From contig OW121743.1 of assembly GCA_933228675.1 (NCBI GenBank), positions 91,983,998 to 92,047,997 of the forward strand: a DNA stretch of 64,000 nucleotides, written 5' to 3'. Within the stretch, counting starts at the first letter, position 1. Each line of letters opens with the position of its first letter. This document shows positions 6,775 through 46,620 of this stretch, in pieces. The notes under the pieces are model-generated. The model was not told where the DNA came from, ran no database searches, and saw only the letters and a program-made list of their open reading frames with translations. This DNA comes from Stomorhina lunata (Eukaryota; Arthropoda; Insecta; Diptera; Rhiniidae). Both the position numbers and the translations under genes were made by a program.

Positions 6775-7659
6775 TTACTGATCTTGCCACAAGGAGATGT
6801 AGTCCAAAAGTTCTTCATCATCTGTGGATGAGCCAGAACTGGTATTGTTGGGCTGATAGTCATCGAAACTAAATGATGACGATGAGTTGGGCTCCTCCAT
6901 CTTAATGGGTGTAGTATTTGGTGTATTCAAGGCAAATGTCGATTCGTTGTTTGATTGATAATGATTTGGTGAATGATGATATTGATAGGATTCTTGTGAG
7001 CCACAAGAATTGGCTGGAGATATTAAATTGTGCTGTTGAAAGCTGCCGGCATAGCTTAGAGGAGCACAGTAAGGCAGCGATGTTTGTTGGAGAGGAGCTT
7101 GTTGATAGTAGTTATGGCTGGCAGAGGAGTTGTGTTGATATAGAGAAGGTGGTGGTGAGCTACTGGTTGAGGAGGCATATGAAACGGGAGAATTGGCTAT
7201 GGTGCCATATGATGAAACACTGGAGGCATCACTGTTGTCAACTTCATCAATCAAATTCTTAAGACGACGTATATATTCAGCCGCCATACGCAAAGTGTCA
7301 ACTTTGCTTAGCTTCTTGTCGGCGCCGGGACCAATACCACGTCTGCCATTACTAATTTCAGCCACTATCGCTGTAGGTATATGTTTTCTCAATGTGGAAA
7401 AACCATCATTGACTTGCTTAACACGACAGCGTTCGCGAGCATTACGTCTCACTACAGCTGGATTATTAGAATCCAAAGTTGTGCCAGCAGCCATTAGGCT
7501 ATTGTTAGTCATGGGCTTTGTATACGGTGCAGGTGCTATAGATCTTTGGTGATTGACATTACGCGTTCTGAGAACTTGCTGCTGTGGAACATGTTGCATT
7601 AGCATTTGATATTGTGTGGGTTGTTGATGATAAACCATATTTTCGGAACCCAAAGCCAT
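6775..7659 (-). CDS. ac: Achaete, proneural bHLH transcription factor
   Basis: A single-exon 294-residue protein, as expected for achaete-scute complex genes. Residues 71-135 form the bHLH: basic region [14 protein letters not shown], then helix 1, the loop with [18 protein letters not shown], and helix 2 ending YIRRLKNL. The loop, the start MALGSEN and the end DYISLWQD are specific to achaete rather than scute, lethal of scute or asense. The remainder is Q-, N-, S- and P-rich. An acidic C-terminal tail ([13 protein letters not shown]) is the usual activation motif and the region shared across the complex. The protein should dimerise with Daughterless on E-boxes to specify sensory and neural precursors. 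It is longer than the roughly 200-residue Drosophila protein because of extended N-terminal and linker regions. Oddity: the position that is Asn in the usual RERNRV is Cys here. The start is chosen from the MALGSEN match. Confidence 0.95.
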
Positions 7660-7757
7660 TTTTGTGAATTTGTAATTTTTTTGGTATATATATTTTGGTT
7701 GAATTTATAAAATTTTTTTATTAAATTTTGATGTTTACTCTTTGGATGCTTAAGATG

Positions 7758-9015: not shown

Positions 9016-9344
9016 CACGATTATTAATGAAACTCGTGAAAATGAGTATTAAAAGCATTCAGTTGGAATTTGTGTGTTAGCAAATTCGTTTGGTGCCGCA
9101 TTGTTAAAGAAAAAACAAAGTATACAAGAAACAAAATCAAAATCCAATTTATAGCAACAAAATACATAGTTCGAGAGAAAAAAAGAAATATAATCTTGAA
9201 CATTGTTGACACGACCATATTATTTTTGTAAACATTGTTTGAAATAAATGTAACCGAATTGGGACTATTTTTACGAAACAGAAATAAATTCCAATACTAA
9301 CAATTTCAGATTTTTATATTTTTTAGAATAAAACAAATCTAAGA

Positions 9345-10514: not shown

Positions 10515-11315
10515 GACAAGTAAGAAAGTGCTATAGTCGGTCAAGCCCGAATATACGGTACCCTTTACCACTAAGATCAAAGGTGTTCTTTTTCCTGTAT
10601 AAAGACAAATATTTGCTAAAGCTTGCCTTCATACAAACATTTTCTCAAAACTTATATATTTAAGCTGTTTCCGTCATTTGGACTTATATGTGAGCTAGGG
10701 TCAAATGTGGACCGATTATCTCGAAATTTGGAAAATTAACTACAGTTATTACAAAAATTATATATTCAAAATATAAACTCAAATTTCTCATTATCTTCAG
10801 ATTAACGAGCTTTTAACAGTTTTTTGTCTCATTAAGTGCGTTTTGACAGAAGAGTTTGTATGGGAGCTATGGTCAAATGTGGATCAATTTCAACGAAATT
10901 TGGTACAGTGATTTTGGTTTACTTTAGCAGTATTTGTTTCAAATTTCATGAAAAATATTGATATTTGTGCCCAATATATCAATTCCGGGAAGTGGGACCT
11001 ATGGGAGGTACCATAAATTATTCACTGATTTTGACGAATTTCAATAGCTATGGTCCCACTATCAAATAAATGATCTGTCCTAAATTTCATCAAATTATCT
11101 TTAGAATTGCGACCTGTACTTTAATTACATGGTTTACTTGGTCCAGCCAGCCGTCCCGACGGACGGACGGACTGACATCGATAAATCGACTCAGAAAGTA
11201 ATTCTAAGCCTGCTAGTATGCTAATAGGTGGGCCTAAGACAAATATTTCTATACGTTACATACATCAGCACAAACTTTTAATACCCTTTCTACTTATGGT
11301 GGTGAAGGGTATAAT
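10515..11315 (+). mobile_element. GTCY-containing dispersed element, copy 1
   Basis: Begins AACAAGTAAGAAAGTGCTATAG then GTCGGTCAAGCCCGA. It has an internal GACGGACGGACGGA microsatellite and a GACTCAGAAAGT block, and ends with GGTGGTGAAGGGTATAA. Full-length relatives lie at 23069-23816 (same strand) and 42137-42875 (opposite strand). There is no ORF. The structure resembles fly mini-me/DINE-1-type non-autonomous elements carrying (GTCY)n. Confidence 0.8.
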
Positions 11316-11879
11316 AAACTTCAAAGTACGAAATGATTTACAATTTTACGGCATGTATGTAACTACTAAATAGTTGAATTGTTTACAAAATATATATAAA
11401 TATATTTCATATAAAATTTTATACCCATTTCACATGTCGGTTTTAAAAGAAATTTTTTGAAAATTTTGTTTAACAAATTTGAAAAATTATAGATTTTCTT
11501 TTCAGTATCATTAAATGAACTAAGGGAAAAATAAAAATCAAAAAAATTGAGGTCAATATTTTGAACCATTTTGCCGTATTTGTGATTTGAAATCGTAGAT
11601 TTTCGCAAAAATGTAAATTTTTAGTAATAAAAACTGAAAAAATATTCAAAGCATTCTATTATTTTTATAATTTTTAATTTAATGATAACAAGTAAGAGTG
11701 TTATATTCGGCTGTTCTTAATCTTATATACCCACCATCAAGAAACATATCACATAAATTCGGGTGCAGTAGCTTTAAAGTTCAACATTTAAAAGTATCTA
11801 AATAAGTAGTTTCAATAGTATTTACTTTGCACAAAATTTAGTCCCATAACCGGGTATAGTTTTAAGCTGTTAATACCTT

Positions 11880-14199: not shown

Positions 14200-14335
14200 T
14201 CTGAAGGAAACCATCGAAACGCGTCGAGAAAAGGTTTCCCCACCAACATTTTTTGGTTTTATTAAAAAACTATTTATTACAATAATAAATAATTGTAGTA
14301 AATTAGGATCTTAGTGTAATACACTACAGTAAAAT
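14200..14335 (+). mobile_element. Ribozyme-element copy 2, hammerhead core deleted
   Basis: Aligns to the minus strand of 26941-27090. It has CTGAAG (14201-14206), then CCATCGAAAC and GCGTCGAG (14211-14228), a CAACATTTTTTGG segment and a stem-loop at 14274-14301, ending TTAGGATC. Relative to the other copy about 13 nt of the 5' side of helix II are gone and the CUGANGA box is broken. The RNA from this copy should therefore not self-cleave. The stem-loop is kept with compensatory changes. Both borders abut minisatellite. Confidence 0.7.
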
Positions 14336-15480
14336 CTGGAAAAATTTTATATAGAAAATTTGTCTAAAGGAAAAATTTATATTGAAAATTTTCTATCAGA
14401 AAAATTTATATCGAAACATTTTTCTATCAGAAAAAGAAAAAATTTATGTCGAAATTTTTTTTTAAGGTAAATTTTTCTATAGGAAAAATTTTATATCGAA
14501 ATTTTTTTATAAGAAAAATTTTATATCGAAATTTTTTTTTAAGAAAAATTTTGTCTCGAAAATTTGATATCGAAAATTGTTCTATAAGAAAAATTTTGTA
14601 TCGAAATTTTTACAAAAAGAAAAATTTGAATTGGAAATTTTTTCTAAAAGAATAAAATTATTCTTTTAAAAAAATTTTCCAATTCAAATTTTTCTTTATT
14701 GAAAATTTTTCTATAATTAAAATTTGATATCGATAATTTTTCTATAGGAAAAACGTTATATAGAAAATTTTCCTATGAGAAAAATTTTATATCCTAAATT
14801 TTTCTATAAGAAAAAAATTGTATTGAAAATCTTCCTATAAGAAAAAGTTTATATTGAAAATCTTCCTATAAGAAAAAGTTTATATCGAAAATTTTTCTAT
14901 AAGAAAAATTTTATATCGAAAAATTTCATAACAAAATTATTTCAAAAATTTTGCTATAAGAATAATTTTATATCGAAAATTTTTTTATAAGAAAAATTTC
15001 AATTAAAATATGTTCTATAAGAAAAATTTCTATCGAAAATTTTTCAATAAGAAAAAATTCTATTTTTTTCTATCAAAAATATTTGATATCAAAAATTTTT
15101 CTATAAGAAAAACTTCTATAGAAAATTTTTTAATAGGAAAAATTTCTATCGAAAATTTTTTAATAAGAATAATTTCTATCAAAAATTTTTTATAAAAAAA
15201 TTTTTATCGAAAATGTTTTTTTAAGGAAAATTTATGGAATTTTTTATACGAAAAATTTATATCGAAAAATTTTCTATAAGAAAAATTGTATATCGGAAAT
15301 TTTTCTATAAAAGAAATTGTTTATCAAAAATTTTTCTATAAAAAATATGAAATCGAAAATTTTTCTTTGAGAAAAATTTTGTATCGAATTTTTAAAAAAA
15401 AGAATTAAATTGAATATTTTTACAGCAAATTTTATATAGACATTTTTTTAAAAGCAAAATTTCTATAAAAATTTGCTGAA
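14336..15480. repeat. ~30-bp minisatellite, TATATCG type (right part)
   Basis: Continuation of the TATATCGAAAATTTTTCTAT plus AAGAAAAATT array. It grades into the GTTACCG subtype near 15480. It contains the inversion junction at 14618-14695. Confidence 0.85.
14618..14695. repeat. 37-bp-arm palindrome inside the array
   Basis: Arms 14618-14654 and 14659-14695 are near-perfect inverted repeats (AGAAAAATTTGAATTGG inward from both ends) around a 4-nt loop. This marks a local inversion or template-switch within the minisatellite. Confidence 0.75.
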
Positions 15481-16365: not shown

Positions 16366-16551
16366 TAAATTAGAATAATATAATAACATATTTCCGAAAA
16401 TGTTTGCATAAAAAAAATTTTAGATGGGAATTTAATTAAAATAAACCAAATTTGGGAGTTACATTTATTTTTTTTATTTAAAAAAGAAAAATTTATTGTA
16501 AAGTTTTTAAAAAATACCACTTAACATAAAAAGTCTTTATAGATCAATCAA

Positions 16552-17011
16552 TTAATTCCACAAATGACGCAAAATAGCGGCAACGCTAATTGTGGCAATT
16601 ACTGTTGTAACATCAACACTGACACGTCCTGCTGGATTGCAACCATTTTTGTTGTTACATTGATTGCATTCATGCTTTTTCGCAGAGTTTGCAAGAGAAG
16701 GTCTCAAAGATAAGCTGCAGCCGGAAATATTGGAATAGATACAACTTCTGTAATAGTATTCAGTATCGGCTAGAAATAGACGAAAACAAGTTAAGAACGG
16801 GTTTAATAGAATATGATATTAGAAAACTTACAAGTTTTTATATATTCTCGGAAACAATCGTAGCTACGAGAAGTGGCATTTGGATTGACACCAACGTGAA
16901 ACTGTTGCAAATAGAGACGGGTAGCATTAGCTACTATTGGATTACATGTTTCTAGATACGGTTTTTTGCATGATTCCTTATTGCTGCAGGTAAAGCACTG
17001 GAGAGCTTGGT
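16552..17011 (-). CDS. Ly6/three-finger cassette B (exons 16832-17011, 16552-16769)
   Basis: Intron 62 nt (GTAAGT/CTAG). Exon 2 (180 nt, phase 1-1) encodes QALQCFTCSNKESC, then NATSRSYDCFREYIK. Exon 3 (218 nt with stop) encodes YYYRSCIYSNISGC, then CNQCNNKNGCNPAGR and a hydrophobic GPI-type tail ending RHLWN. All ten Ly6 cysteines and the final CN are present and the frame is intact. AATAAA-type signals lie just beyond the stop (near 16467-16480), so the cassette has its own 3' end. No signal-peptide exon lies in the 316 nt separating it from cassette C. It is a duplicate of cassette D, with few amino-acid changes. The likely product is a GPI-anchored extracellular protein of the fly Ly6 family; the exact member is not identified. 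Confidence 0.8.
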
Positions 17012-17327
17012 CTGAAAAAAATTATTTGTAATTAGTCTTTTTTAAATGTTAATCCAAGTTTTAGTCATTAGGTAGTTTCATTCTTACTGATATTTATAGT
17101 TTAATTCTGAACTGTTTAAAATTATTCACAAAAATCGAATATAAATTTTACACAAATACAAAAATTGTTATGTGGACCCAGAGTTTGAGGATCACATTTG
17201 CTTTCGTTGGATGAAATCATTGCAATTAAATAAGACATCACAATTTTATTCGCTTTTAGCCGTTTTTATTCATTTATTAAAATAAATTGTACAAAAATTT
17301 TCAACAACAATTACAACTTTTTTTAAT
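17012..17327. other. B-C spacer, conserved with the D-E spacer
   Basis: Alignable along its length with 19602-19925. It holds the 3'UTR and poly(A) signals of cassette C, then intronic or 5' sequence of B. I searched the minus strand for a signal-peptide exon with a phase-1 donor and found none conserved between the two copies. One candidate ATG frame in this spacer is broken in the D-E copy. Confidence 0.6.
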
Positions 17328-17792
17328 TCAATTACACCCCATTCTTGCAATTAAACCCACAATCAATGTTGTCAACACAGTCATCAATTCAATGCTAGCA
17401 CGTCCAGCTGGATTGCAGCCATTTTTGTTGCTACATTGATCACATACCTGCTTATAATTTAGTGATGTTATATAGTTATCTAAAGGTAGATCACATCCCT
17501 GGATGTTTGCATAAGTGCAGCCTTTGTAGTAGTAATTATTTGCAGCTGCAATTAAGAAATAGCAACACATTTAGTTTTTCTTGTAAGGAGAACTTGAAAC
17601 TTAAGCACTTACGTGTGTCGATGTATTCATGAAAACATTCGTAAAAAGGTGAAGTAGCATTAATACTGGCGTTCTTATGGAAGGCTGCTACATAAGTTCG
17701 GGTTCTATTGGCTAGAGCAGGGTTGCATTCTGACAGTTTTGGGCTTCTACAACTTTTTTTGTCATCACAAACATAGCACTTGAGTGAATAAC
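17328..17792 (-). CDS. Ly6/three-finger cassette C (exons 17613-17792, 17328-17545)
   Basis: Intron 67 nt (GTAAGT/TTGCAG). Exon 2 (180 nt, phase 1-1) encodes YSLKCYVCDDKKSC, then NATSPFYECFHEYID. Exon 3 (218 nt) encodes NYYYKGCTYANIQGC, then CDQCSNKNGCNPAGR and a hydrophobic tail ending ARMGCN. Ten Ly6 cysteines are conserved. AATAAA signals follow at about 17272-17287. No first exon lies between here and the array that starts at about 17845. It is paralogous to cassette E. The B-C pair and the D-E pair form a tandem duplication in which flanks and the spacer between cassettes are also alike. Confidence 0.8.
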
Positions 17793-17844
17793 CTGACAGG
17801 TAAATAGGTTAAACTTTGTTTATATATTTTGCAATGAAAAGTCA

Positions 17845-19000: not shown

Positions 19001-19141
19001 TAGAAATTTGCATAAATTAAAATAAATCAAATTTGGGAGTTACGTTTATTTGTTTTTATTCAAAAAAGAAAAATTTTAAATATTTTTGTAAAGTTTCTAA
19101 AAAATACCACATAAAATAAAAAGTCTTAATACATCAATCAA

Positions 19142-19601
19142 TTAATTCCACAAATAACGCAAAATAGCGGCAACGCTAATTGTGGCAAATACTGTCATAA
19201 CATCAACACTGACACGTCCTGCTGGATTGCAACCATTTTTGTTGTTACATTGATTGCATTCATGCTTTTTCACAGAGTTATAAATAGAAGGACTCAAAGA
19301 TAAGCTGCAGCCGTAAATATTGGAATAGGTACAACTTCTATAATAGTATTCAGTATTGGCTAGAAATAGACGCAAATACTTTAAGAACGGGTTTAATAGA
19401 AAATGATATTAGAAAACTTACAAGTTTTTATATATTCTCGGAAACAATCGTAGCTACGAGAAGTGGCATTTGGATTGACACCAACGTGAAACTGTTGCAA
19501 ATAGAGACGGGTAGCATTAGCTATTATTGGATTACATGTTTCTAGATATGGTTTTTTGCACGATTCCTTACTGTTGCAGGTAAAGCATTGGAGAGCTTGG
19601 T
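19142..19601 (-). CDS. Ly6/three-finger cassette D (exons 19422-19601, 19142-19359)
   Basis: Intron 62 nt. Exon 2 (180 nt, phase 1-1) encodes QALQCFTCNSKESC, then NATSRSYDCFREYIK. Exon 3 (218 nt) encodes YYYRSCTYSNIYGC, then CNQCNNKNGCNPAGR and a GPI-type hydrophobic tail ending RYLWN. All ten Ly6 cysteines are intact. It is the duplicate of cassette B, differing at scattered sites, and both are open, which argues for selection after duplication. No local first exon is seen in the 324 nt before cassette E. With the exon at 25245-25305 the junction codon would be AAC, giving VSLNQALQC. Confidence 0.8.
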
Positions 19602-19925
19602 CTGAAAGAAATAATTTCTTATTAGTCTTTTTTAAATTTTGTTGCAAGTTCAAGTCATTAAGTAGTTTCGTTCTTACTGATATTTATAGTTTAATTCTAA
19701 ACTGTTTAAAATTATTCACAAAAATAGAATTTTAATTTTACACAAATACAAAAAATTGTTATGTAGACCCAAAGTTTGAGGACCACATTGGCTTACACTT
19801 GATGAAATCATTGCAATTTAATAAAACATCACAATTTTATTCGCTTTTAGCCATTTGTAATCATTTATTAAAATAAATTGTACAAAAATTTTCTACAACA
19901 ATTACAACTTATAATTTTTTTTAAT

Positions 19926-22900
19926 TCAATTACACCCCATTCTCGCAATTAAACCCACAATGAATGTTGTCAACACAGTCATCATTTCAATGCTAACACG
20001 TCCAGCTGGATTGCAGCCATTTTTGTGATTACACTGATTACATTCCTGCTTATACTTTTGTGATGTTATATAATTATCTAAAGGTAGCTTACATCCCTGA
20101 ACATTTGCATAGGTACAACCTTTGTAGTAGTAATTATTTGCAGCTGCAATTAAGGAATAGCAAAAAACTAAGTTGTTCTTGTAAGGAGAACTTTAAACTT
20201 AAGCACTTACGTGTGTCGATATATTCATGAAAACATTCGTAAAAAGGTGAAGTGGCATTAATACTGGCGTCCTTATGGAAGGCTGCTACATAAGTTCGGG
20301 TTCTGTTGGCTAGCGCAGGATTGCATTCTGACAGTTTTGGGCTTCTACAACTTTTTTTTTCATCACAAACATAGCACTTGATTGAATAACCTGGTGTGTT
20401 ATGTAATAGGTTAAATACTGTCTATATAATTTGTAATGAAAAGTATAGCCAACACCAAAACAGAAAGATGTAATTTTAATGGGGAAACGGTACCTTTTTA
20501 TGCTGTTTTAGTTGTGAATTCAAGTTTAAAACGATATCTTACAAACGTCTGAGATTTCTTAATGCTTTTTTTTATATCGAAAATTTTGAAAATTTTCTAT
20601 AGAAAAATTTTATATCGAAAATTTTTTATAGAAAAATTTTATATCGAAAATTTTCTATAGAAAAATTATATATCGAAAATTTTCTATAGAAAAATTATAT
20701 ATCGAAAATTTTCTATAGAAAAATTTTATATCGAAAATTTTCCATAGAAAAATTTTATATAGAAAATTTTCTATAGAAAAATTTTATATCAAAAATTTTC
20801 AATAGAAAAATTTTATAGCGGAGGTTTTCTATAGAAAAATTTTGTATCGAAAATTTTCTATAGAAAACATGTATATCAAAAATTTTCTATAGAAAACTTA
20901 TATATCGAAAATTTTCTACAGAAAAATTTTAAATAAAAAATTTTCTTTAGAAAAATTTTACATCGAAAATATTCTATCGAAAAATTTTATATCGAAAATT
21001 TTCTATAGAAAAATTTTATATCGAAAACTTTCAATAGAAAAATTTTATATCGAAAATTTTGTATAAAAAAATGTTATATCGAAAATTTTATTTATTTAAT
21101 TTTTATAGAAAATTTTCGATATAAAATTTTTCTTAGGAGGTTGTGGGTTCGAGTCCGGGCTCAGGTTTATATCAAATAGTTTTTTCAGTATTCCTATAAA
21201 TTATTAATCTAATTTAAAAAATCCTAAAAATTTTTAAAATAAAAAATATAAATTTATGATATGAACCTGAGCCCGGACTCGAACCCACAACCAAGAAAAA
21301 TTGTATATCGAAAATTTTCTATAAAAAATAAATAAATAAAATTTTCTAATGAACAATTTTATATCGAAAATTTTCTATAGAATAATTTTATATCGAAAAA
21401 TTTTATATCGAAAATTTTTTAGAGAAGACTTGTATATTAAAAATTTTCTATAAAAAAATTTTATATTGAAAATTTTCTATAGAAAAATTTTATATCGAAA
21501 ATTTTCTATAAAAACATTTTATATCGAAAATTTTCTATAGAAAAATTTTATATTAAAAATTTTCTGTGGAAAAATTGCATATCAAAAATTTTCTATAGAA
21601 AAATTTTATATCAAAAATTTTTTAGAGAAAACTTGTATATCAAAAATTTTCTATAAAAAAATTTTATATCGAAAATTTTCTAATGAACAATTTTATTTGA
21701 AAATTTTCTATAGAAAAATTTTATATTAAAAATTTTCTATAGAAAAATTTTATATTGAAAATTTTTTATAGGAAACTTTTATATCGAAAATTTTCTATAG
21801 AAAAATTTTATATCGAAAATTTTTTAGAGAAAAATTTTATATTGAAAATTTTCTATAGAAAAATTTGATATTGAAAATTTTCTATGGAAAATTTTTAAAT
21901 CGAAAATTTTCTGAAGAAAAATTTTATATCGAAAATTTTCAATAGAAAAATTTTATATAGAAAATTTTCTATAGAAAAATTTTATATTAAAAATTTTCTA
22001 TAGAAAAATTTTATATTGAAAATTTTTTATAGGAAACTTTTATATCGAAAATTTTCTATAGAAAAATTTTATATCGAAAATTTTCTATAGAAAAATTTTA
22101 CATCTAAAATTTTTTATAGAAAAATTTTATATCAAAAATTTTCTATAGAAAAATTTTATATCAAAAATTTTCTATAGAAAAATTTGGTATCAAAAATTTT
22201 CTATAAAAAAAATTTTTATCGAAAATTTTCTAAAGAAAAATTTTATATCGAAATCTTATATCGAAAATTTTCTATAGAAAAATTTTATATCAAAAATTTT
22301 CTATAGAAAAATTTTATATCGAAAATTTTCTTTAAAAAAATTTATATCGAAAATTTGACTAACCTGCTATACCACTTCGGTATAGCTAATTAAAGGGACA
22401 AAATAAACGCGAATTATAGTGTCTATGCAAAATATGAAAAAAAATTCGATTTCACCCAATAAATTCTGCGCAATATTTAAAAGAGAATTCAGTCAAATCA
22501 TGTTATAAATAAATATATATATAGATTAAAATCAGTGGAAACTTTTTCTACCACAATATTACTTATTAGTGTATATAGTTCCCTTAAATGCCAAAGATCG
22601 TAACTGACATTTAAATTAATAATATATTTTTTTTCATAATTTCAATCAAAAAGTTTTAATGACACAGACTTCGTCATTACCGGTAACGATATACGAGTCC
22701 ATTAAAATTTCATAATATTTTTCAATAATCTTGTTTATGAAAACTACATTGTGAAACCAATTGGAATTTAGTCAATTGTTGATTTAAACGCCCGTGCTAA
22801 AAGATAACGTTTTTTTTTTGAAATTCTTATCATTAATGGTGTTCACTGTTTATTTAGTTAGAATTAAAGTATCATATTGTCAATGCAAAGCGAATGTGTC

Positions 22901-25305
22901 ACATAGATTATTAATGTGACAGATAAACAATATAAATATGACTCAATGGATACTGTTTTGTGATTATGATTTATTATTGGAATTTAATGAAATTTAATAT
23001 TAAATTTATAGAATAATTTTGGGAGGAACAAGAAAAATTGTTTGCAAAAAAATAACGATTAAAGGAAGAACAAGTAAGAAAGTGTCAAAGAATAGTCGGT
23101 CAAGCCCGACCATACGATACCCTTCACCACTAAGGTCAAAGGTGTTCTTTTTCCTGTATAAGGACAAATATTTGCTTAATTTTATCATCATACAAACATA
23201 TTCTCAAAACTAGGGTCAAATGTGGACCGATTATTATGAAATTTTTCAAACTGATTTTAGTTGCTCCAAAAATTGTTATGCAAAAAATAAACTTAAAATT
23301 GTCATTATCTTAGGATTTACGAGCGTTTTAGTGAATTTTGTCTCATTTAGTGCGTTTTGAGAAAAGAGTTTGTATGGGAGCTATGATCAAATGTGGACCG
23401 ATTTCAACGAAATTTGGTACAGTGATTTAAGTTTACATAAGCAGTATTTGTTTTAAATTTCATGAAAAAATTTTGATTTTTGTGCCCAATATATCAATTC
23501 CGGGAAGTGGGACCTATGGGAGGTACCATAAATAATGGACGAATTTCAATAGCCATGGTTCTGTTATCAAAAAAATGATCTGTATTAAATTTCATCAGAT
23601 TATCTTTAGAATTACGACCTGTAGTTTGATTACAAGGTTTACATGGGGGTCCAGCCAGCCAGACGGACGGACGGACATCGCTAAATCGACTCAGAAAGTG
23701 AGTCTAAGCCTATTGGTATACTAAAAGATGGGTCTAAGACAAATATTTTTATGCCTTACATACATCAGCACAAACTTATAATACCCTTTCCACCTATGGT
23801 GGTGAAGGGTATAAAAATACGTTATTTTTTCCCTCTTTCAACTAAAAAAAAAAAAACTTGAAAAAAAAACAGCGACAGGGACAGCAGATGACGCCGTATG
23901 GCTTGCCTTTTTTATAAGTCGAAATTATTAAAATTTACTACCGAAATTCGGAGTCAGGGGCCTCTACTTTAGGAGCGCAAATTATCTTCAGCAATGAGTT
24001 CATTTCTGGCTGAATGGCTTCGTCAATAAACATAATATGCGTTATTGATCAAAGTAGCAATCCACATTCATTGAACCGTACTTCTTCCATGAATGAGAAT
24101 GATAACCGAATATTTTTGGCATCAATTCGATGATATGGACTCGGAGGATATGTGGTTCCAATAGAACGGCGCCACTAGCCACTCACCGAATGTCACAATC
24201 AATTTATTAAAAACCAAGTTTGGAGAACTTGTTATCTCACGAAATGGTCCAGCCGATTGGCCGCCACGGTCGTGCGATTTGACGCCGTTAGACAATTTCC
24301 TGTCGGGCTACGTCAAGTCTATGGTTTATGGACATGCAATTACAGTATTGAATAATATAAAAAGGCTTTATATCTTCTTTTCACCATCTTCCACAACTCT
24401 TCTATCCACTTTCCAAAGAAAATAACACAATTCGTGTATACGATTGTATAGGTAGTATTTGCATTTTACACTAAATGACACTATATTTCATCATACCGGG
24501 CAATCTATTTATGAGATTGAAACTTTGTGTTACCTAAAAAGTATAATCTCGACAACCAAATCCAAAGTTTCACACGCACTCGAAAACGTGATCGGATTGG
24601 ACACACATTTAGATAGACAGCTAGTGATATAAATCGTCAAGCTTATGAATAAAATCCTCGAGGTCAAATGAACACATCGAAGCGCCAAACTAAAAACGTG
24701 TTAAGAAAGTTTCGTGTATCATAAAAAGAGATTTAAGTGATGATTTCCAAAAAACTAATACGGCAAATATTTACAGAGGCTCTATGTTTCACCAGGAATT
24801 AAAGGACTTATAAAAGCTCCTTGTAAAAAAACAATTCAAACATCGAATTCGATATCCATCGAAATGTAAGATATTTTAGAAACATTTGTGTAGCATACTT
24901 TTAGGATAATCTTAATATTTTTTAACATATTAGGTTCACTACATTGTAACTTATTTGCCAAAAGGAGCCTGATAGTAAAAAAAAAATTATTTAAATTAAA
25001 TGTTTTGACAAACAAACGGATATGTTTAGATTTCACATTTTATTAATCTTTTTGCATTTTTTTATTTTGAAAATTCCTAAGGTATATTACACAACATTTG
25101 CCCAATAGTCCGAGTTTTCGATCGATATCGAATTTGTCGATTTGGTGCCTTTTTCATTTCTTTTTTAATTTTAAAACTTATTTTAATTTTGACACTTTAT
25201 ACATTTATATATATAAAATATTTAATTAACTTTTTTTTACGTACTTAGTGAAACGCAACAGAATGCTATTAAAGCAACACCAAAAATAATTTTTGTCGAT
25301 TTCAT
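19926..25305 (-). CDS. Ly6/three-finger gene E (exons 25245-25305, 20211-20390, 19926-20143)
   Basis: The three-exon model gives about 152 residues. Exon 1 encodes a signal peptide: MKSTKIIFG then VALIAFCCVSL. Its donor is GTACGT in phase 1. Exon 2 (180 nt) encodes YSIKCYVCDEKKSC, then NATSPFYECFHEYID. Exon 3 encodes NYYYKGCTYANVQGC, then CNQCNHKNGCNPAGR and a hydrophobic GPI signal ending ARMGCN. Order: signal, ten-cysteine Ly6 domain, GPI tail. The secreted, lipid-anchored location is inferred from family knowledge. Intron 1 is about 4.85 kb and contains a 29-bp minisatellite, a GTCY element, a mariner remnant and a TIR element. Intron 2 is 67 nt. Cassette E is the nearest acceptor for this first exon, but the same donor is phase-compatible with cassettes A-D. 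Confidence 0.75.
20575..22360. repeat. 29-bp minisatellite, TATATCG/CTATAG type
   Basis: Around 60 copies of TATATCGAAAATTTTCTATA plus GAAAAATTT, diverged. It lies in intron 1 of the Ly6 transcription unit. It is the reverse complement of the unit at 26.4-28.7 kb and is interrupted by the inverted repeat at 21081-21346. Confidence 0.9.
21081..21346. repeat. ~90-bp-arm inverted repeat with tRNA-like B box
   Basis: Left arm 21081-21173, right arm 21258-21346, loop about 84 bp. The inner 35 bp of each arm (21139-21173 and 21258-21292) differ at one base and carry GTGGGTTCGAGTCCGGGCTC, which includes a tRNA B-box-like GGTTCGAGTCC. The outer part of the arms is minisatellite in opposite orientation. 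A transcript would fold into a long hairpin. Confidence 0.8.
22361..23060. other. Spacer with a tRNA-like A-box scrap
   Basis: At 22366-22395 the minus strand reads GGTATAGCAGGTTAGTCA, matching the tRNA-like head of the SINE at 43.7 kb. A companion GCTATACCGAAGTGGTATAG makes a small hairpin. The rest is non-coding AT-rich sequence with no recognised feature. Confidence 0.45.
23069..23816 (+). mobile_element. GTCY-containing dispersed element, copy 2
   Basis: Complete by comparison with the other copies: starts ACAAGTAAGAAAGTG, GGTCAAGCCCGA; internal GACGGACGGACGGACATCG; ends CACCTATGGTGGTGAAGGGT. Non-coding. Same orientation as the 10.5 kb copy. Inside intron 1 of the Ly6 unit. Confidence 0.8.
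23990..24410 (+). pseudogene. Mariner/Tc1-superfamily transposase remnant
   Basis: The plus-strand frame from 24132 gives DMDSEDMWFQ, a TAG stop, NGAT, TINLLKTKFGELVISRNGP and WPPRSCDLTPLDNFL. This is the catalytic-domain end of a Tc1/mariner-type DDE transposase, with the second catalytic Asp in the region of the RSCDLTPLD motif. Upstream (about 24000-24110) the homologous region continues with a further stop. It is dead, with only the C-terminal half left. Confidence 0.75.
24840..25137 (-). mobile_element. ~300-bp terminal-inverted-repeat element, copy 1
   Basis: The ends carry related inverted sequences of about 60-65 bp: CGAATTCGATATCCATCGAA at one end and the complement of TTCGATCGATATCGAATTTG at the other, each followed inward by ..TGTGTA..ATACTTTTAGGA or its counterpart. 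An inverted second copy is at 35818-36097. Non-coding, MITE-like. It lies just 3' of the signal-peptide exon of the Ly6 unit. Confidence 0.65.
25245..25305 (-). CDS. Signal-peptide first exon of the Ly6 cluster (A-E side)
   Basis: A 61-nt exon: ATG at 25305, 20 codons plus one base, then a GTACGT donor. It encodes MKSTKIIFG then VALIAFCCVSL, a typical signal peptide with a basic n-region and a 15-residue hydrophobic core. It is the same length and phase as the exon at 32363-32423, and 13 of the 20 codons specify the same residues or close substitutes. It is the only such exon found upstream of cassettes A-E. Confidence 0.75.
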
Positions 25306-25389: not shown

Positions 25390-26440
25390 AAACAGCTATA
25401 AAATATTGAATATAAATTTTAGTTAATATATAATAACTTGACTAAAATCAATGGCTAAGGAAGAATTATATAGAATTTTGTACATTTAAGATAAGATTTG
25501 TAAAACAAAATAACTTATCGCACATTGAGTATTTCAGAGTAAAATAGTTAAAAAATGGGGTTCCCTTTTTATAAGAAGAAGAGAATAGTCCATTGAGACC
25601 GACTAAATGGTTCCCTATATGTTTTTATATAGTTAGTGGGGTAAAAATCCATAACGCAGCTAATTTGGGATCATCTAAAATTTTTACATCGAAAAACTCT
25701 AATCGGCTCTTAATCCTCAGAAATGCCTCCCACTGAATAAAAAGTTTAAGAACAATAGTTTTAGGTCTTAAACATTACAACAGACGAAAAAAGCTTTCCA
25801 CTTAAAGTGGTGTGAGGTTTATAAAAAACCAAAGCAAATAAAATGGACATAATCGTCCAATCGTTTGAACAGATTTAAGGGTGAATGTTTAGATTCGCTA
25901 TAGCCGATTCTATCACCTCCTTGCGAAAAATTTTTAATAAATATGCCAGTTATTATGTATAAGGTAGGTAATAACTTTATCTGAAGATAATTCATGAAGA
26001 AATAAATAAAACTCTTAGATTAATAATATTTATAATCTTATCTCGCAATTGGTCTCGTAAAGTGTTTTAACAAAGACTATGACTAATTTGCCCATATCCG
26101 AAATTAATAAATGTATTTTTTTATTTTCAAAAATATGTATAAACAAAATGATTAATTTTATTTCATATAAAAATTCGATAGCATAATTTGATTGCTTTTA
26201 TTTCACAAAAATTATTATTAGGTAATATTTTGTAATATTGGACTTAAAATTTAGTTAACTGTGATTATTTTTCTCAAATATTATTTTTCTGATTACAGGG
26301 ACAATTTACTTAACTGCAAAATAATTTCTAAGAAAAAAGTCGACTATAGATTATTGCTTTCAAACCCAAATTTATCACAGTATTCAACTATAGGGTGGGC
26401 CATTTAAAACTATAAATTTAGAACATTTTCGCATAAAATT
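25390..26440. other. Upstream spacer of the Ly6 A-E unit
   Basis: Non-coding, AT-rich, without recognised repeats or genes. It probably contains the regulatory region of the 25.3 kb first exon, but no site can be named. Confidence 0.4.
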
Positions 26441-26940
26441 TACCTATAGAAAATTTTTGATATCAAATTTTTCTAAAGAAAATTTTCGATAAAAAATTTT
26501 TCTATAGAAAATTTTCGATATAAAATATTTTTATAGAAAATTTTCGATATAAAATTTTTCTATAGAAAATTTTCGATATAAAATTTTTCTATGGAAAATT
26601 TTCGATATAAAATTTTTCTATAGAAAATTTTCGATATAAAATTTTTCTATAGAAAATTTTCGATATAAAATTTTTCTATAGAAAATTTTCGATATAAAAT
26701 TTTTCTATAGAAAATTTTCGATATAAAATTTTTCTATAGAAAATTTTCGATATAAAATTTTTCTATAGAAAATTTTCCATATAAAATATTTCTATAGAAA
26801 ATTTTCGATATAAAATTTTTCTATAGAAAATTTTCGATATAAAATTTTTCTATAGAAAATTTTCGATATAAAATTTTTCTATAGAAAATTTTCGATATAA
26901 AATTTTTCTATAGAAAATTTTCGATATAAAATTTTTCTTC
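26440..26940. repeat. 29-bp minisatellite, CGATATA type (left part)
   Basis: About 17 very regular copies of CGATATAAAATTTTTCTATA plus GAAAATTTT. The array is interrupted by the ribozyme element and continues from 27261 in the same orientation. Confidence 0.95.
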
Positions 26941-27260
26941 AAAAAGAATTGTATTTGCATTTGATCCCAAATCTGTTACATTTATTTATTAATGTAACAG
27001 ACCAATTTATTGATAAAAAGCCAAAAAATGTTTGCGGAGAAACCAAAGTCCTCGACGCGTTTCGATGGTTGGTTAAGCCATCTCTTCAGGAGGATTATCC
27101 CCAATTTAGACAGATCGAAAACCTCGCATTATTACTAAATTTACAAACATAACTATTAAGAATTATGTTCATAAACCAAAAGTAAAAGCGTACATTATCG
27201 ACTGAACAAAAATAAACATTTTTCAGTTTTCATCTACCTTCACTTCCCACTTCCCACTTC
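26941..27260 (-). mobile_element. Hammerhead-ribozyme-bearing element within a minisatellite
   Basis: A unique 320-bp block between two stretches of the same 29-bp array. In the minus-strand sense it has a ~150-nt leader, the hammerhead motif (27102-27036), a CAAACATTTTTTGGC segment, a 10-bp stem-loop (27000-26973) with loop AATAAATA, and ends near TTGGGATC. The 14200-14335 copy shares the part from the ribozyme core to GATC. There is no long ORF. Hammerheads with a tiny helix III of this type are known from Penelope-like retroelements and small circular-RNA retrozymes in animals. Which class this belongs to cannot be told from one window. Confidence 0.7.
27036..27102 (-). ncRNA. Predicted type I hammerhead self-cleaving ribozyme
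   Basis: Minus strand, 5' to 3'. Helix I 5' strand is TCCTC (27094-27090). The box CTGAAGA (27089-27083) fits CUGANGA. Helix II is GATGG/CCATC (27082-27078 with 27068-27064) closed by a 9-nt loop and has the usual first G-C pair. GAAA follows (27063-27060), then a minimal helix III CGCG, then the cleavage triplet GTC (27056-27054). Helix I 3' strand is GAGGA (27053-27049), fully complementary to TCCTC. Distal helix I can extend by GGGGA (27102-27098) with TCTCC (27040-27036) across an internal loop. All conserved core bases are present. Predicted cleavage is between 27054 and 27053. Confidence 0.75.
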
Positions 27261-28720
27261 TATAGAAAATTTTCAATATAAAATTTTTCTATAGAAAATT
27301 TTCGATATAAAATTTTTCTATAGAAAGCTTTCGATATAAAATTTTTCTACAGAAAATTTTCGATATAAAATTTTTCTATAGAAAATTTTCGATATAAAAT
27401 TCTTCTATAGAAAATTTTCGATATAAAATTTTTCTATAGAAAATTTTCGATATAAAATTTTTCTGTAGAAAATTTATGATATAAAATTTTTTTATAGAAA
27501 ATTTACGATATAAAATTTTTCTATAGAAAATTTTCGATATAAAATTTTTCTATATAAAATTTTCGATATAAAATTTTTCTATATAAAATTTTCGATATAA
27601 AATTTTTCTATAGAAAATTTTCGATATAAAATTTTTCTATAGAAAATTTTCGATATAAAATTTTTCTATAGAAAATTTTCGATATAAAATTTTTCTATAG
27701 AAAATTTTCGATATAAAATTTTTCTATAGAAAATTTTCGATATAAAATTTTTCTATAGAAAATTTTCGATATAAAATTTTTCTATAGAAAATTTTCGATA
27801 TAAAATTTTTCTATAGAAAATTTTCGATATAAAATTTTTCTATAGAAAATTTTCGATATAAAATTTTTCTATAGAAAATTTTCGATATAAAATTCTTCTA
27901 TAGAAAATTTTCGATATAAAATTTTTCTATAGAAAGCTTTCGATATAAAATTTTTCTACAGAAAATTTTCGATATAAAATTTTTCTATAGAAAATTTTCG
28001 ATATAAAATTCTCTATAGAAAATTTTCGATATAAAATTTTTCTATAGAAAATTTTCGATATAAAATTTTTCTGTAGAAAATTTATGATATAAAATTTTTT
28101 TATAGAAAATTTACGATATAAAATTTTTCTATAGAAAATTTTCGATATAAAATTTTTCTATATAAAATTTTCGATATAAAATTTTTCTATATAAAATTTT
28201 CGATATAAAATTTTTCTATAGAAAATTTTCGATATAAAATTCTTCTATAGAAAATTTTCGATATAAAATTTTTCTATAGAAAATTTTCGATATAAAATTT
28301 TTCTGTAGAAAATTTATGATATAAAATTTTTTTATAGAAAATTTACGATATAAAATTTTTCTATAGAAAATTTTCGATATAAAATTTTTCTATATAAAAT
28401 TTTCGATATAAAATTTTTCTATATAAAATTTTCGATATAAAATTTTTCTATAGAAAATTTTCGATATAAAATTTTTCTATAGAAAATTTTCGATATAAAA
28501 TTTTTCTATAGAAAATTTTCGATATAAAATTTTTCTATAGAAAATTTTCGATATAAAATTTTTCTATAGAAAATTTTCGATATAAAATTTTTCTATAGAA
28601 AATTTTCGATATAAAATTTTTCTATAGAAAATTTTCGATATAAAATTTTTCTATAGACAATTTTCGATATATAATTTTTCTATAAAAAATTCTCGATAAA
28701 AAAATTTTTTATAGAAAATT
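27261..28720. repeat. 29-bp minisatellite, CGATATA type (right part)
   Basis: About 50 copies of CGATATAAAATTTTTCTATA plus GAAAATTTT. Higher-order copies are visible. A block with CTGTAGAAAATTTATGATAT, TTACGATATA and two CTATATAAAATTTTCG units recurs starting near 27463, 28070 and 28305. Confidence 0.95.
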
Positions 28721-29340
28721 TTCGACATAAAATTATCCTATAGAAAATTTTCAATATAAAATTTTAAGAGAAAAATTTTCGATATTAAATTTTTAGAAAC
28801 AAAATGTTTAATGAAAAAATTTAGATATGAAATTTTTAAAAATAAAATTTTCACTTAAAATTTTATAGAAAAATTTTTCATATGAAATTTTTATAGAAAA
28901 ATTCTTGATGTCAAAATTGTATAAATAAATTTTTAATATATAATTTTATAGACAAATTTTCGATGTAAAATATTTAAAGGAAAATTTTGTGATGCAAAAC
29001 TTTTATCGAAAAATTTTCGGTATAAAATTTTTTCGATAGACAAATTTTCAGTATAAAAATTTTTCTATAAAAAAATTTTGATATGAAATTTTTGTAGAAA
29101 AATTTTTGACATAAAATTTAATATTAAAAATTTAGACATGAAATTTTTATATCAAAATTTTAGACATAAAAAAATTTCTACATAAAATTTTTATAGAAAA
29201 ATTTTCTACATTACATTTTTATAGAAAAATCTTCTACATCACATTTTAAAAGAAAATTTTATGATATAAAATTTGTATAGGAAAATTTTCTATACAATTT
29301 TTTCATAGACAAGTTATCATTAAAAATGTTTTGTAGAAAA
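28721..29340. repeat. Decayed edge of the 29-bp array
   Basis: Units are still recognisable (GAAAAATTTTCGATATAAAA-like) but carry many substitutions and length changes. It grades into the CGGTAAC subtype. This is the typical older flank of an array homogenised in its centre. Confidence 0.75.
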
Positions 29341-29935
29341 ATTTTCGATAACAAACTTTTATAGAAAAATTTTCTTTAGCAAACTTTTATAGAAAAATTT
29401 TCGTTATCAAATTTTTATAAAAAAAATTTTCGGTAGCAAACTTTTATAAAGAAAAATTTCGGTAACAAAATTTTTATAGAAAAATTTTCGGTAAAAATTT
29501 TTATAGAAAAATTTTCGGTAACAAATTTTTATAGAAAAATTTTCGGTAACAAATTTTTATAGAAAAATTTTCGGTAACAAATTTTTATAGAAAAATTTTC
29601 GGTAACAAATTTTTTTAGAAAAATTTTCGGTAACAAATTTTTATAGAAAAATTGTCGGTAACAAATTTTTTTAGAAAAATTTTCAGTAACAAATTTTTAT
29701 AGAAAAATTTTCAGTAACAAATTTTTATAGAAAAATTTTCAGTAACAAATTTTTATACAAAAATTTTTGGTAAAAAATTTATATAGAAAAATTTTTGGTA
29801 AAAAATTTATATAGAAAAATTTTTGGTAAAAAATTTATATAGAAAAGTTTTCGGTAACAAATTTTTATAGAAAAACTTTTGGTAACAAATTTTTATAGAA
29901 AAATTTTCGGTAACAAATTTTTATAGAAAAAAATT
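29341..29935. repeat. 28-bp minisatellite, CGGTAAC type
   Basis: About 20 copies of CGGTAACAAATTTTTATAGA plus AAAATTTT, the reverse complement of the 15.5 kb GTTACCG unit. Confidence 0.95.
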
Positions 29936-42000: not shown

Positions 42001-42136
42001 TATAGTCTCATTTTTTTCCACTTTTTAAGGCACACAGTAAATGTGAATTATATACCTTGAATCACGAAACAGTAGACATGACTTTATTTGCTAACAAACC
42101 CTCCTTCGCCTTCTTTGGTGCCGACAAACCAAATTT

Positions 42137-42875
42137 TTATACCCTTCACCACCGTAGGTGGAAAGGGTATTATAAGTTTGTGCTGATGTTTGTAACGCAT
42201 AGAAATATTTGTCTTAGACCCACCTTTTAGTATACCAATAGACTTAGAATCACTTTCTGAGTCGATTTAGCGATGTCCGTCCGTCCGTCCGTCCGTCTGG
42301 CTGGCTGGCTGGCTGGACTCCCATGTAAACCTTGTAATCAAACTACAGGTCGCAATTCTAAAGATAATTTCATGAAATTTGACATAGATCATTTTTTTAA
42401 TAATGGAACCATGGCTATTGAAATTGGTCAAAATCGGTCCATTATTTATGGTACCTCCCATAGGTCCCACTTCCAGGAATTGCTATATTGGCCACAAATA
42501 TCAATATTTTTTCATGAAATTTAAAACAAATACTGCTTATGTAAACTTAAATCACTGTACGAAATTTCGTTGAAATCGGTCTACATTTGACCATAGCTCC
42601 CATACAAACTCTTCTTTAAAAACGACCTAAATGAGACAAAAAATCACTAAAACGCTCGTAAATCTAAAGATAATGAAAATAATCGGCCCTCATTCGATCC
42701 TAGCTCTCATATAAGTCCAAATGGCGGAAACAGCTTAAATATATAAGTTTTGAGGAAATGATGGCAAAATTTAGCAAATATTTGTCTTTATACAGGAAAA
42801 AGAACACCTTTGACCATAATGGTGAAGGGTATCATATAGTCGGCTTGACCGACTATAGCGCTTTCTTACTTGTTT
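42137..42875 (-). mobile_element. GTCY-containing dispersed element, copy 3 (inverted)
   Basis: The reverse complement of the 10.5 and 23.1 kb copies: starts ATACCCTTCACCACC, has GTCCGTCCGTCCGTCCGTCT then CTGGCTGGCTGG, and ends GTCGGCTTGACCGACTATAG and TTTCTTACTTGTT. The microsatellite is longer here. Confidence 0.8.
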
Positions 42876-43402
42876 TCCTCCGGTTTATTGCGTTCATTGT
42901 TATAAAATGTTAAAAAACTCAAACATCTTGCTGCTGAAAAACGCCAAACTTTTAAGAGAAATTGTGAATTGTTCGATTACATAAGAGGCAACCATATTGT
43001 GGGAAGCTCTATCATACTCAAATCACTAAGCCATGTGGGATGATTATGATGTAAAAGTCAATCAAACCAAAGTCAAAAACTTGGACGTGCAAACATGAGT
43101 CAGATGACGTGAGGCAGCTTTAGCTACTGACGTTTAAATCAAAGTCTAGTTACAGGCGAAGCGTATGTGTTACAAAGTGCTAAGATGCGCAGATGTTCTT
43201 GGTGATCCTCGGGGCAGTAAGAGCTTTTGGATGGCCGGGTATTAAAAGAACCTGTGAATAAAAGTGACCTTCTAGTTGAGTTTTTTGCGATTGTCAGAAA
43301 TCATTCAACCTCTATCTGTGCTTGAAATAGTATCCGTAACTATGCTAAAGACATTCTTTCGCACCCGTGTTGTTAAAAGGGTTTATTTACATTACCTGTA
43401 TC
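42876..43402. other. Spacer, nothing recognised
   Basis: No open frame or repeat that I recognise, although base composition is less AT biased than the arrays. Confidence 0.35.
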
Positions 43403-43790: not shown

Positions 43791-46620
43791 TCCATTGGAT
43801 ACCGTGTCTAATATTTAGAGCCATATGCATTATGTTGTCGATTACGAGGATAATAGGTATAGTTGGCAAGATACATCCTTGCCTTACTCCAAAAATAACA
43901 CCTAACGGTTCTGATAATTTACCCTTGTGTAGGACTATACATTTAAAATCAACGTGCATTGCCCAGATTAAGGTCAGAATTTTCGTTGGCATGTTAAAAA
44001 ATTCTCCATATATAGCTTCTATTGACACTGTCGAAGGCCTTCATAAAGTCGATAAACGCTAGGTAAATGGGAGTTCGGAATTTATTACTTGCTTTAGAAC
44101 TATTCTTACTGTCTTGATTAAATCAATATAAGAACAGTTTTCTCTGAGCCCAAACTGTATTGGAAGAAGTGTTATACCCATGTAGTTATTGCAGTCTTTG
44201 GGTTCACCCTTTTTTTTGGTATTTTGACTAGTATACCCTCATTCCAGGAGGTTGGTAAAGCTTCTTCTTCCCATATTTTATGCACAAATGGGTGCCACAG
44301 TCTTCCTGATCCTTCAACATTACATAAAAGCATAAATAATAAAATGGCATCGTTGGTTTCATGTTACACTTCCGTCAGTACTTCTAACCCAGTAGGATTG
44401 TTTAATATTGACTAGAAGTGTTCCACCCATCTTAATAATTGTTCAGGATAGGATATATTGTACAATGTCCTCATGTCGCCTTTACTTGCATCTGACTCAG
44501 CTTGGCTCGCTTGTTCATCTATCCACACTCTCTTGCCCCTCCTTGCAGACCTTTTTATTCTATTGGATAGGTCTAGAGATGGGTTTAGACCTGGGTATTT
44601 ACCCAACGCTGGGTATTTATCAATTTATACCCATTTTCATACCCGGGTATTTATCTAATTTAGGGTAAATACTCATTTCAATAACAAACACTATTTGTTA
44701 CATTGAGTAACAGAAATGTGAACATTTTCGAATTTATTTTAAACATAAAAACAATGTCACAGGTGCTAAACAAAAATGTAATGTCAGATTTTGTCAATTA
44801 CAAGGTCAGAAATGATTTCCGGTCAAAAACTTTTGTCTGGAGCTGTTTGGATGAAATTTCTCCAGTAACTTGATGAAAAGGAATTTGTGGAAGAACGCAA
44901 TTAGGCTGTTGGAATTTTAACAGCTTCCTGTACTTCAGCTGCTACTGAACATTCCTTTAGCACCCACAGCTTCATTCACTTCAAAAAAGGAACCGTTTCA
45001 CAACACAAAGAGCAGTTAAAATAACATATATATCGTGCAACTGGAACTAGCTTTTTAAAATAGTCTACCACCTTCAGTAGAAAGCACGCGGTCCATTCAA
45101 TTTTAAAATGAAGGCACTCAAAACGATATAAATATCTTCAACTTTATTAGGAATCACGCACTCTATTCGATGAGTTTAATTGAATACGGACAGTGAGAGC
45201 GATTAAGTTAAAATATTATTGCATTTGTTATTAAAAAATCGAATTCATTCATCGAATGCTTTTAATTTAGTTATATTTTTCTTTATTCTAATTTATACCC
45301 ACATTTTGGGTAAATACCCAGGTGCTTGAGTAAATATCTGGGTATTTACATTTAAATACCCATTTTACCATTTGGGTATTTACCCTTGTCCCATCACTAG
45401 ATAGGTCACAGTATGCCATTCTCAACATCCACGTTTACATTTAAAATTGTATTTTTTTAGGTTTTACGTTCTTCATACAGGTCCCATATTGCTTAGGTGA
45501 GCCAGACTTTCCCTTTATGGTCTTTGATACCTAACGTTTGTTGACCAACCTCGCTGTACGTTGGAGTGACACACCTTGCGATTTCGTTAATATTAACATA
45601 GTTGTTGTTAAAAACATCTGGAAGCCGATTCCTTATGGCATTTCGATGTCGTTCTGATTTTAGTTTACCAACATCAATTTTCCGATTGGCTTTTGCCGTT
45701 TCATACCTCAGAGCGGCTACTTTCAATCAAACTTTAGATATAACTAAATGATGGTCGCTGTTTATATCTCGAGCGTACATCAAGTAAAGATGATCGCCAC
45801 TTAGAGTTGATCAAAATGTGATCAATTTGATTCTTAGTGACGCCGTTCGGCGATACCCAAGTTATTTTAGCTTATGAGGAAAAATAGTACCATCTACAAC
45901 CAGTTTCCTTTCACAGCATAGTTCAAATAATCTTTTCCCGTTATCGTTTCTTACTCCGACACCGTGCTTACCAATGTAGTATTTCAAACCGGTATTGTTT
46001 GACCCTACTTTGGCGTTAAAGTCGCCCAGTATTATGATAATATCACAATTATTTACATTGCTGTTCATCCATCTGCTTAATACATCATTTAATTCGTCTT
46101 TGTCGTTTTCAGATTGGATTTCAGTAGGAGCGTAGACATTGATAATTATTAAATTACGAGCTCTAATCTTGAGTTTTATTGCCATTAGCCTCTCATTGAT
46201 GGGATACCATGCTATCATGGCTATAGCTATTCTTTTAGTCATCAGAAAGCCCACAGCCCTACTATGCTCATCACCCTCCGGGCGACCGGAGTAAAGAAAC
46301 ACAGGTTTTTCGTTCTAAACTTCCCCTTGTCCTGTCCATCTTGCTTCTTGAACCGACAGCAGATCAACTTTATAACCCGACATTTCACGCCTTAGTTATT
46401 CTAGTTTTCCAGTTTCGTGTAGCTTGAGTACATTCCATTTTGCAAACTTTAAACTTTCTTTTATGCCTATTTTAGGTTTTGAAGTCCGATTTCTTTGGGT
46501 ATAATAGTTTCATTCATCAGGATGTTCTTTTATAGATTAGGCCCCTCCAAAATTCTTGTGCCAGCTGCAGTAGCAGGGGGATTTCTCGCTTGATTACCCC
46601 TTGGAGTAGTATATTCTGTA
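43783..46620 (-). pseudogene. RTE-clade LINE remnant (endonuclease plus partial RT)
   Basis: Minus strand, in order. First an AP-endonuclease domain from about 46440 to 45740, with KFAKWNV, SVQEARW (catalytic Glu), IINVYAPTE, ILGDFNAKVG and KNQIDHILI. Then a linker region (45726-45493) with KSERHRNAIRNRL. Then, after the hAT insertion, reverse transcriptase from about 44566, with SNRIKRSARRGKRVW, EEALPTSWNEGILV, CNNYMGITLL and GVRQGCILP. The catalytic YADD end is missing; the element stops at the SINE at 43783. Several stops and frameshifts show it is dead. Similar proteins are often labelled craniofacial development protein 2-like in insect annotations. Sequence to about 46620 may be its 5' end. 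Confidence 0.8.
44574..45399 (+). mobile_element. hAT transposon inserted in the RTE LINE
   Basis: An 826-bp insertion flanked by an exact 8-bp target duplication GATAGGTC (44566-44573 and 45400-45407), diagnostic of hAT. Terminal inverted repeats are TAGAGATGGG and CCCATCACTA, with subterminal GGGTATTTACCC-rich repeats. The plus strand retains the hAT C-terminal dimerisation region, frameshifted: SAATEHSFSTHSFIH then RNRFTTQRAVKITYI. The transposase is otherwise deleted. Confidence 0.85.

Follow-up and report, generated by a model that had tools for sequence, protein, structure and literature searches.

The closest described systems are the hammerhead ribozymes of animal retroelements. According to the accessible excerpts of the reviews, hammerheads occur in all available Penelope-like elements, minimal type I motifs lacking helix III or loop contacts are conserved in these elements, and minimal type I motifs number in the thousands across animal genomes. 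The Penelope-like element PAc, from a lizard, has its cut site 26 bp into the open reading frame; copying begins within an AC-rich stem-loop 111-118 bp along the frame, which is where the genomic copies end, and the targets are AT-rich (PMC11167929). By subtraction, the start of copying falls 85-92 nt past the cut site, and because the two lie close together in the reading frame, the hammerhead is found near the 3' end of the copies. The PAc ribozyme required the element protein in order to cut, and insertion in vitro did not depend on that cutting (PMC11167929).

Retrozymes with type I hammerheads are known as well. HHR_Amex1 of axolotl retrozymes and the newt satellite hammerheads are described, in the available part of one paper, as weak alone and better as dimers; the same part states that retrozyme-like repeats occur in insects (PMC7229834). 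Type III hammerheads are known from flies: in the accessible text on hepatitis delta virus (HDV)-like agents and Drosophila pseudoobscura, helix I of these ribozymes consists of a 5-bp stem followed by an internal loop and then an outer hairpin, the internal loop pairs Watson-Crick with the helix II loop, and similar motifs are reported from housefly, Rhagoletis and Hermetia genomes (PMC7936874).

Here we analyse a stretch of 64,000 nucleotides from the fly Stomorhina lunata (contig OW121743.1), called the window throughout, with a G+C content of 24%.

The hammerhead motif

The minus strand of 27094-27049 reads UCCUC-CUGAAGA-GAUGG-CUUAACCAA-CCAUC-GAA-ACGCGU-C-GAGGA and contains what defines a type I hammerhead, namely the CUGANGA...GAA core, a UH cleavage dinucleotide and three helices, of which helix I is open. 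Judged against the hammerhead core consensus, as it also stands in the Rfam alignment, all fixed core bases are present; N7 is A. Helices I and II comprise 5 bp each, helix II opening with a G-C pair, and helix III is a single A-U pair around the palindrome CGCG; ACGCGU is self-complementary, and 6 bp could form between two molecules. Only one of the 17 CTGANGA sites in the window (7 on the plus and 10 on the minus strand) fulfils the whole descriptor, the one at 27094-27049. All parts of the complete type I hammerhead that the initial annotation had placed on the minus strand were located here, including its very short helix III, and the likeness to animal retroelement hammerheads that it had pointed out, with a probable (predicted) action as a dimer, was also borne out. 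As a sequence the hammerhead is real; its cleavage is a prediction. The features are as follows.

27049..27094, minus strand: type I hammerhead core with helices I and II (descriptor; Rfam Hammerhead_1, 23.5 bits over 27095-27048)
27053..27054, minus strand: predicted cleavage site, 3' of C17 (the scissile C17 being 27054) in GTC, from the descriptor position and the Rfam alignment
27055..27060, minus strand: minimal helix III, A[CGCG]U (sequence; zero-length loop in the Rfam alignment)
27036..27102, minus strand: ribozyme including outer helix I (GGGG/CUCC); the minimum-energy fold contains helices I and II only if the loop-loop strands are barred from pairing
27069..27074, minus strand: loop of helix II with AACCAA, proposed to contact the helix I internal loop (6 Watson-Crick bp with 27046-27041)
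27041..27046, minus strand: internal loop of helix I with UUGGUU, proposed to contact the helix II loop (the second copy, copy B, retains the GGUUUC stretch)

A descriptor similar to, not identical with, the one used on the window was run on random sequence. With helices I and II of at least 4 bp it matched 126 times in 4328 Mb of uniform base composition and 48 times in 402 Mb from a Markov model of the window; with both helices of at least 5 bp the counts were 16 and 6 in the same amounts of sequence. The expected number of chance matches per 64-kb window, both strands included, is about 0.004-0.015 (at least 4 bp) or 0.0005-0.002 (at least 5 bp). Context matters for a hammerhead match, because chance matches would arise over many windows.

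The Rfam scan of the whole window at gathering thresholds returned no match, and no hammerhead was reported from a 401-bp region at E<=10. The 67 bp of the ribozyme alone gave Hammerhead_1 (RF00163) with 23.5 bits and an E-value of 3.3e-4 over model positions 1-45 of 45, short of the gathering score of 34, so that the covariance-model check proposed in the initial annotation ended in an end-to-end alignment below the cut-off. The E-value for the 67-bp query counts all 4227 families, according to the description of the tool; by arithmetic, this score would have an E-value near 0.3 over the whole window if all families are counted and near 7e-5 if RF00163 alone is. The miss in the 401-bp region is probably a filter effect, because the filters relax for short inputs.

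Folding and a proposed loop-loop contact

The best fold of the 67-nt RNA is not the hammerhead: it reaches -16.1 kcal/mol, compared with -10.3 for the hammerhead secondary structure, and the pairing probabilities are about 0.03 for helix I and about 0.09 for helix II. The stability of this RNA does not exceed that of its shuffles (z -0.13). In the fold of the 321-nt RNA, helix II has a probability of 0.5 and helix I of 0.0. The competing 67-nt fold rests on the pairing of AACCAA in the helix II loop with UUGGUU in the internal loop of helix I, and because these loops face each other in a hammerhead, the six pairs could be a loop-loop contact, of a type that the folding program, which handles no pseudoknots, cannot show. 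When the two strands were kept single, helices I and II reached probabilities of 0.85 and 0.97 in a fold of -13.2 kcal/mol that also has two in-core pairs foreign to hammerheads. The six-pair loop duplex alone contributes -4.4 kcal/mol; added to the -10.3 of the hammerhead this gives -14.7, short of the competing -16.1. Six loop pairs arose by chance in 1327 of 200000 shuffled loops and in 683 of 200000 random loops, rates that apply to a match noticed after the fact. We propose, by analogy with the type III hammerheads, which offer a precedent, that AACCAA and UUGGUU may form a loop contact.

The insert and its array

The ribozyme lies in an insert, copy A, at which the array halts and restarts in phase on either side, with a 4-bp AGAA repeated at the junctions.

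26419..29931, no strand assigned: 29-bp AT-rich minisatellite hosting copy A (Tandem Repeats Finder)
26939..27257, minus strand (element strand): copy A, 319-bp insert with the ribozyme, 33% G+C, interrupting the array 26419-29931
26935..26938, minus strand: target duplication AGAA, 3' copy (sequence)
27258..27261, minus strand: target duplication AGAA, 5' copy (sequence)
26970..27003, minus strand: 3' hairpin of copy A, 13 bp with the 8-nt loop AAUAAAUA (comparison with copy B)
6775-7704, minus strand: achaete gene, its protein 83% identical to that of Calliphora vicina, 81% to Lucilia sericata and 80% to Cochliomyia hominivorax (best named matches), which marks the host as a blow fly or close kin

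Read in six frames, copy A contains no recognisable protein and no convincing reading frame, and the RNA of 26940-27260 pairs strongly with itself (z -3.0; its stability was reached by 1 shuffle in 100). The initial annotation had spoken of a ribozyme in a minisatellite; that the ribozyme is part of the minisatellite unit is ruled out, and it sits in an insert within the array, with a target duplication and a second, truncated copy elsewhere. The same annotation had also described a non-coding element of about 320 bp inside a 29-bp array near the achaete gene, and this description holds. As for its proneural/Ly6 region, the achaete gene is present, but Pfam finds no family in the two Ly6-labelled frames scanned.

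AT-rich minisatellites make up about 29 kb of the 64 kb, in 13 blocks at 73-62476 with units mostly of 28-34 bp, many of which share TTTTTCTATAGAAAAATTTT or a near variant. The 13 arrays contain 10 non-array runs of at least 30 nt: two are copy A, one is copy B, three belong to an inverted insert at 21132-21292, and the other four (30-47 nt) have the look of decayed units or of the margins of arrays. The inverted insert is a pair that interrupts the array 20588-22329, whose orientation reverses across it; it includes GGTTCGAGTCC, which we take to be B-box-like, and both halves start at the unit phase found after copies A and B (AGAAAAATTTTATATCG or nearly so). ARAGORN reported no tRNA or tmRNA in the window, this inverted pair included.

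Other repeats in the window are a dispersed repeat at 10516-11317, 23070-23817 and 42133-42879 (80-87% identical, the last copy inverted) and a duplication, 16438-17842 / 19019-20444, 91% identical, each half of which has a small cysteine-rich frame and lies beside 28-bp arrays; the initial annotation labelled these frames Ly6-like, and Pfam assigns no family to the one of the two that was scanned. Residual LINE-type endonuclease sequence is present at 45862-46314 (Pfam Exo_endo_phos_2 with E 1.7e-4, which falls short of the curated cut-off).

The second copy

Copy B was found by BLAST within the window, the match at 14209-14297 on the plus strand having 80% identity over 94 columns (E 4e-16).

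14211..14337, plus strand: copy B, 127 bp, 5'-truncated, starting in the 3' strand of helix II (BLAST)
14206..14210, plus strand: target duplication GGAAA, 5' copy (sequence)
14338..14342, plus strand: target duplication GGAAA, 3' copy (sequence)
14271..14304, plus strand: 3' hairpin of copy B (comparison with copy A)

Because the first bases of copy B belong to the 3' strand of helix II, it lacks the CUGANGA half; the CTGAAGG upstream fits the array and is taken as chance. From CCAUC (helix II) to GAGGA (helix I) copy B keeps 19 of 20 bases, and 19 nt around the core are identical between the copies. The excess of core conservation over the rest of the alignment is weak when the core is bounded by structure (19/20, p 0.046); bounding it by the identical run itself (20/20 columns against 55/74, p 0.006) was dropped for the structure-bounded comparison. 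The 3' hairpins of the copies differ at 9 positions in paired columns and at none in the loop; three pairs show double compensatory and two single changes, seven are unchanged and one is broken. A pattern as good was obtained in 187 of 200000 random placements, which is suggestive, from two sequences, of compensatory change.

Copies A and B have a common orientation and the same site in the array unit (the junctions in array phase were picked by eye, among those listed), and their target duplications measure 4 bp (A) and 5 bp (B). Their 3' ends lie 115 nt (A) and 112 nt (B) from the predicted cut site. A shared 3' end combined with differing 5' ends is a mark of target-primed retroelements. 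Tandem copies flanked by hammerheads were not found in the window, where A and B are both single.

Several other candidates were set aside. Weak BLAST matches that might have been further copies in the window (best E 0.001 at 9242; others at least 0.005, including those at 16458 and 22893) look AT-rich or palindromic, and so do the matches beyond the two copies (E at least 1.8) of a profile built from A and B, whose score for B is circular and was not counted as evidence. The hairpin at 22893-22923 (GTCACAT...ATGTGAC) resembles the 3' hairpin of copy A, the match being weak (BLAST E 0.058). As a tracer in viral contigs the 19-nt core gave 0 matches; a 17-nt version matched 37 bacterial and archaeal contigs, near the roughly 30 estimated by chance, and a looser pattern matched at least 120 stretches in viral contigs, again near chance by estimate.

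Comparison with known systems

Penelope-like elements and Terminons contain minimal type I hammerheads (Cervera and de la Pena 2014; Lunse et al. 2017) that, in the accessible descriptions, share with the fly motif the order of the core, a near-absent helix III and the expectation of dimers; they are described as lacking helix III or loop contacts, whereas the fly motif could form six Watson-Crick loop pairs. As in Penelope-like elements, the hammerhead lies near the 3' end, 5' truncation is variable and the target is AT-rich in A and B, a pattern that comes from two copies only. PAc and the fly copies are alike in that the latter end 112-115 nt past the cut site, with a hairpin some 30 nt before the end; they differ in that the PAc stem-loop is AC-rich and copying starts inside it, whereas the fly hairpin is AT-rich and the copies end beyond it. 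No element protein was found beside the fly insert: the 19 reading frames of the window that were scanned contain no reverse transcriptase or GIY-YIG domain, which a 3' fragment need not carry.

HHR_Amex1 and the newt satellite hammerheads likewise have, in the available part of the paper, a helix III of one base pair, a palindromic tetraloop and loop contacts (PMC7229834). The axolotl motif is described there as numbering over 100,000, in retrozymes of about 330-350 nt, whereas the fly window has two single copies (PMC7229834). The type III hammerheads of flies have the same helix I layout as the present type I motif and the loop pairing that is proposed for it, a likeness drawn from their description in the accessible text (PMC7936874), but they are open at helix III and closed at helix I, whereas the present motif is open at helix I. 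Another insect hammerhead from repeated DNA is that of the pDo500 satellite in Dolichopoda cave crickets, for which, according to the accessible text, a double form has been proposed; in the cricket the ribozyme belongs to the satellite unit, whereas in the fly it belongs to an insert, and stem III of the cricket double form folds within one molecule (PMC2837043). Against Rfam RF00163, all 45 model positions align with the fly motif, with a helix III loop of zero nucleotides and a score below gathering.

Origin of the insert

The sequence of the window itself shows that the core is complete, that the two copies agree in their 3' end but not in their 5' end, that the target duplications are short and that the 3' part is structured. 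The explanation that we consider likely is that a retroelement whose type I hammerhead has a weak helix III, as in amphibian and Penelope-like hammerheads, left its 3' end here on insertion by target-primed reverse transcription into an AT-rich array, and that this segment is probably immobile today. Copies A and B probably represent the dead 3' ends of either a Penelope-like element or a retrozyme that such an element mobilised, and a retroelement origin of the hammerhead is very likely. The full-length element, whether Penelope-like itself or a small retrozyme that relies on such an element for movement, would be transcribed in tandem; its hammerheads would cleave this RNA 3' of GUC, working best in pairs joined through the ACGCGU helix and possibly steadied by the AACCAA/UUGGUU loop contact; and the machinery would begin copying near the 3' hairpin and take its primer at a nick within the array sequence TTTTTCT^AT. 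By itself, copy A could cut its own transcript weakly at most.

A retrozyme proper, that is, a non-coding RNA of about 320 nt cut by tandem hammerheads, circularised and copied by the reverse transcriptase of another element, is a rival reading: copy A agrees in length and base composition (319 bp, 33% G+C) with the low-GC animal retrozymes of 150-450 bp, non-LTR forms whose strong pairing it also has (321-nt RNA, z -3.0), and a weak helix III with a palindromic tetraloop is the form of the axolotl HHR_Amex1. Animal retrozymes are, however, described in the available part of the paper as tandem copies (PMC7229834), whereas A and B are single, their ends do not fall at the cleavage site and B is 5'-truncated, and we regard this origin as rather unlikely. 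That the hammerhead is a chance match in a structured, non-catalytic repeat is very improbable. Descriptor hits of about 0.0005-0.015 per window mean that some are expected over thousands of windows, the Rfam score is below the cut-off, and the pairing of helix I is unfavoured in the folds of both the 67-nt and the 321-nt RNA; yet the motif is exactly the retroelement kind of hammerhead and lies within a retroelement-like insert, the part of the core kept in copy B is nearly unchanged, and a loop-loop match of this quality has a chance of 0.3-0.7%, as a match found after the fact.

The two copies might also go back to one ancestral insertion that was duplicated with the array, B having later lost its 5' part, and the equal orientation and equal phase of the 3' junction in the array unit are what such a history would leave. 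We think this rather unlikely, as the deletion would have had to stop at the same left array phase by accident (about 1 in 29, by estimate), and B has its own 5-bp duplication. A preferred insertion site is favoured by the unrelated inverted insert (21132-21292), whose two halves also meet their array at this phase. A still bolder proposal goes beyond the retroelement 3' end that we favour, to a fly retroelement family in whose type I hammerhead a helix III of one pair, able to form dimers, would occur together with a loop-loop helix made wholly of Watson-Crick pairs, and which would insert at one fixed site, TTTTTCT^AT, of an AT-rich minisatellite unit, the arrays serving as landing pads; this we hold to be distinctly unlikely.

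Significance

The kind of ribozyme is already known, because the reviews and the retrozyme literature report type I hammerheads, including those with a one-pair helix III. The initial annotation had called the locus undescribed, which applies at most to this locus and type, as minimal type I motifs in animals and type III hammerheads in flies are known from the accessible parts of the reviews and of PMC7936874. A limited survey of titles and abstract openings on fly hammerheads contained no type I hammerhead locus in a blow fly, a result that speaks for those titles and openings and not for print as a whole. If activity were absent, the copies would be ordinary fossils. The available excerpts of the reviews call the role of hammerheads in Penelope-like elements unknown, and a family in blow flies that combined an undamaged core with a well-defined 3' end and a repeatedly used target would make that role convenient to study in an insect.
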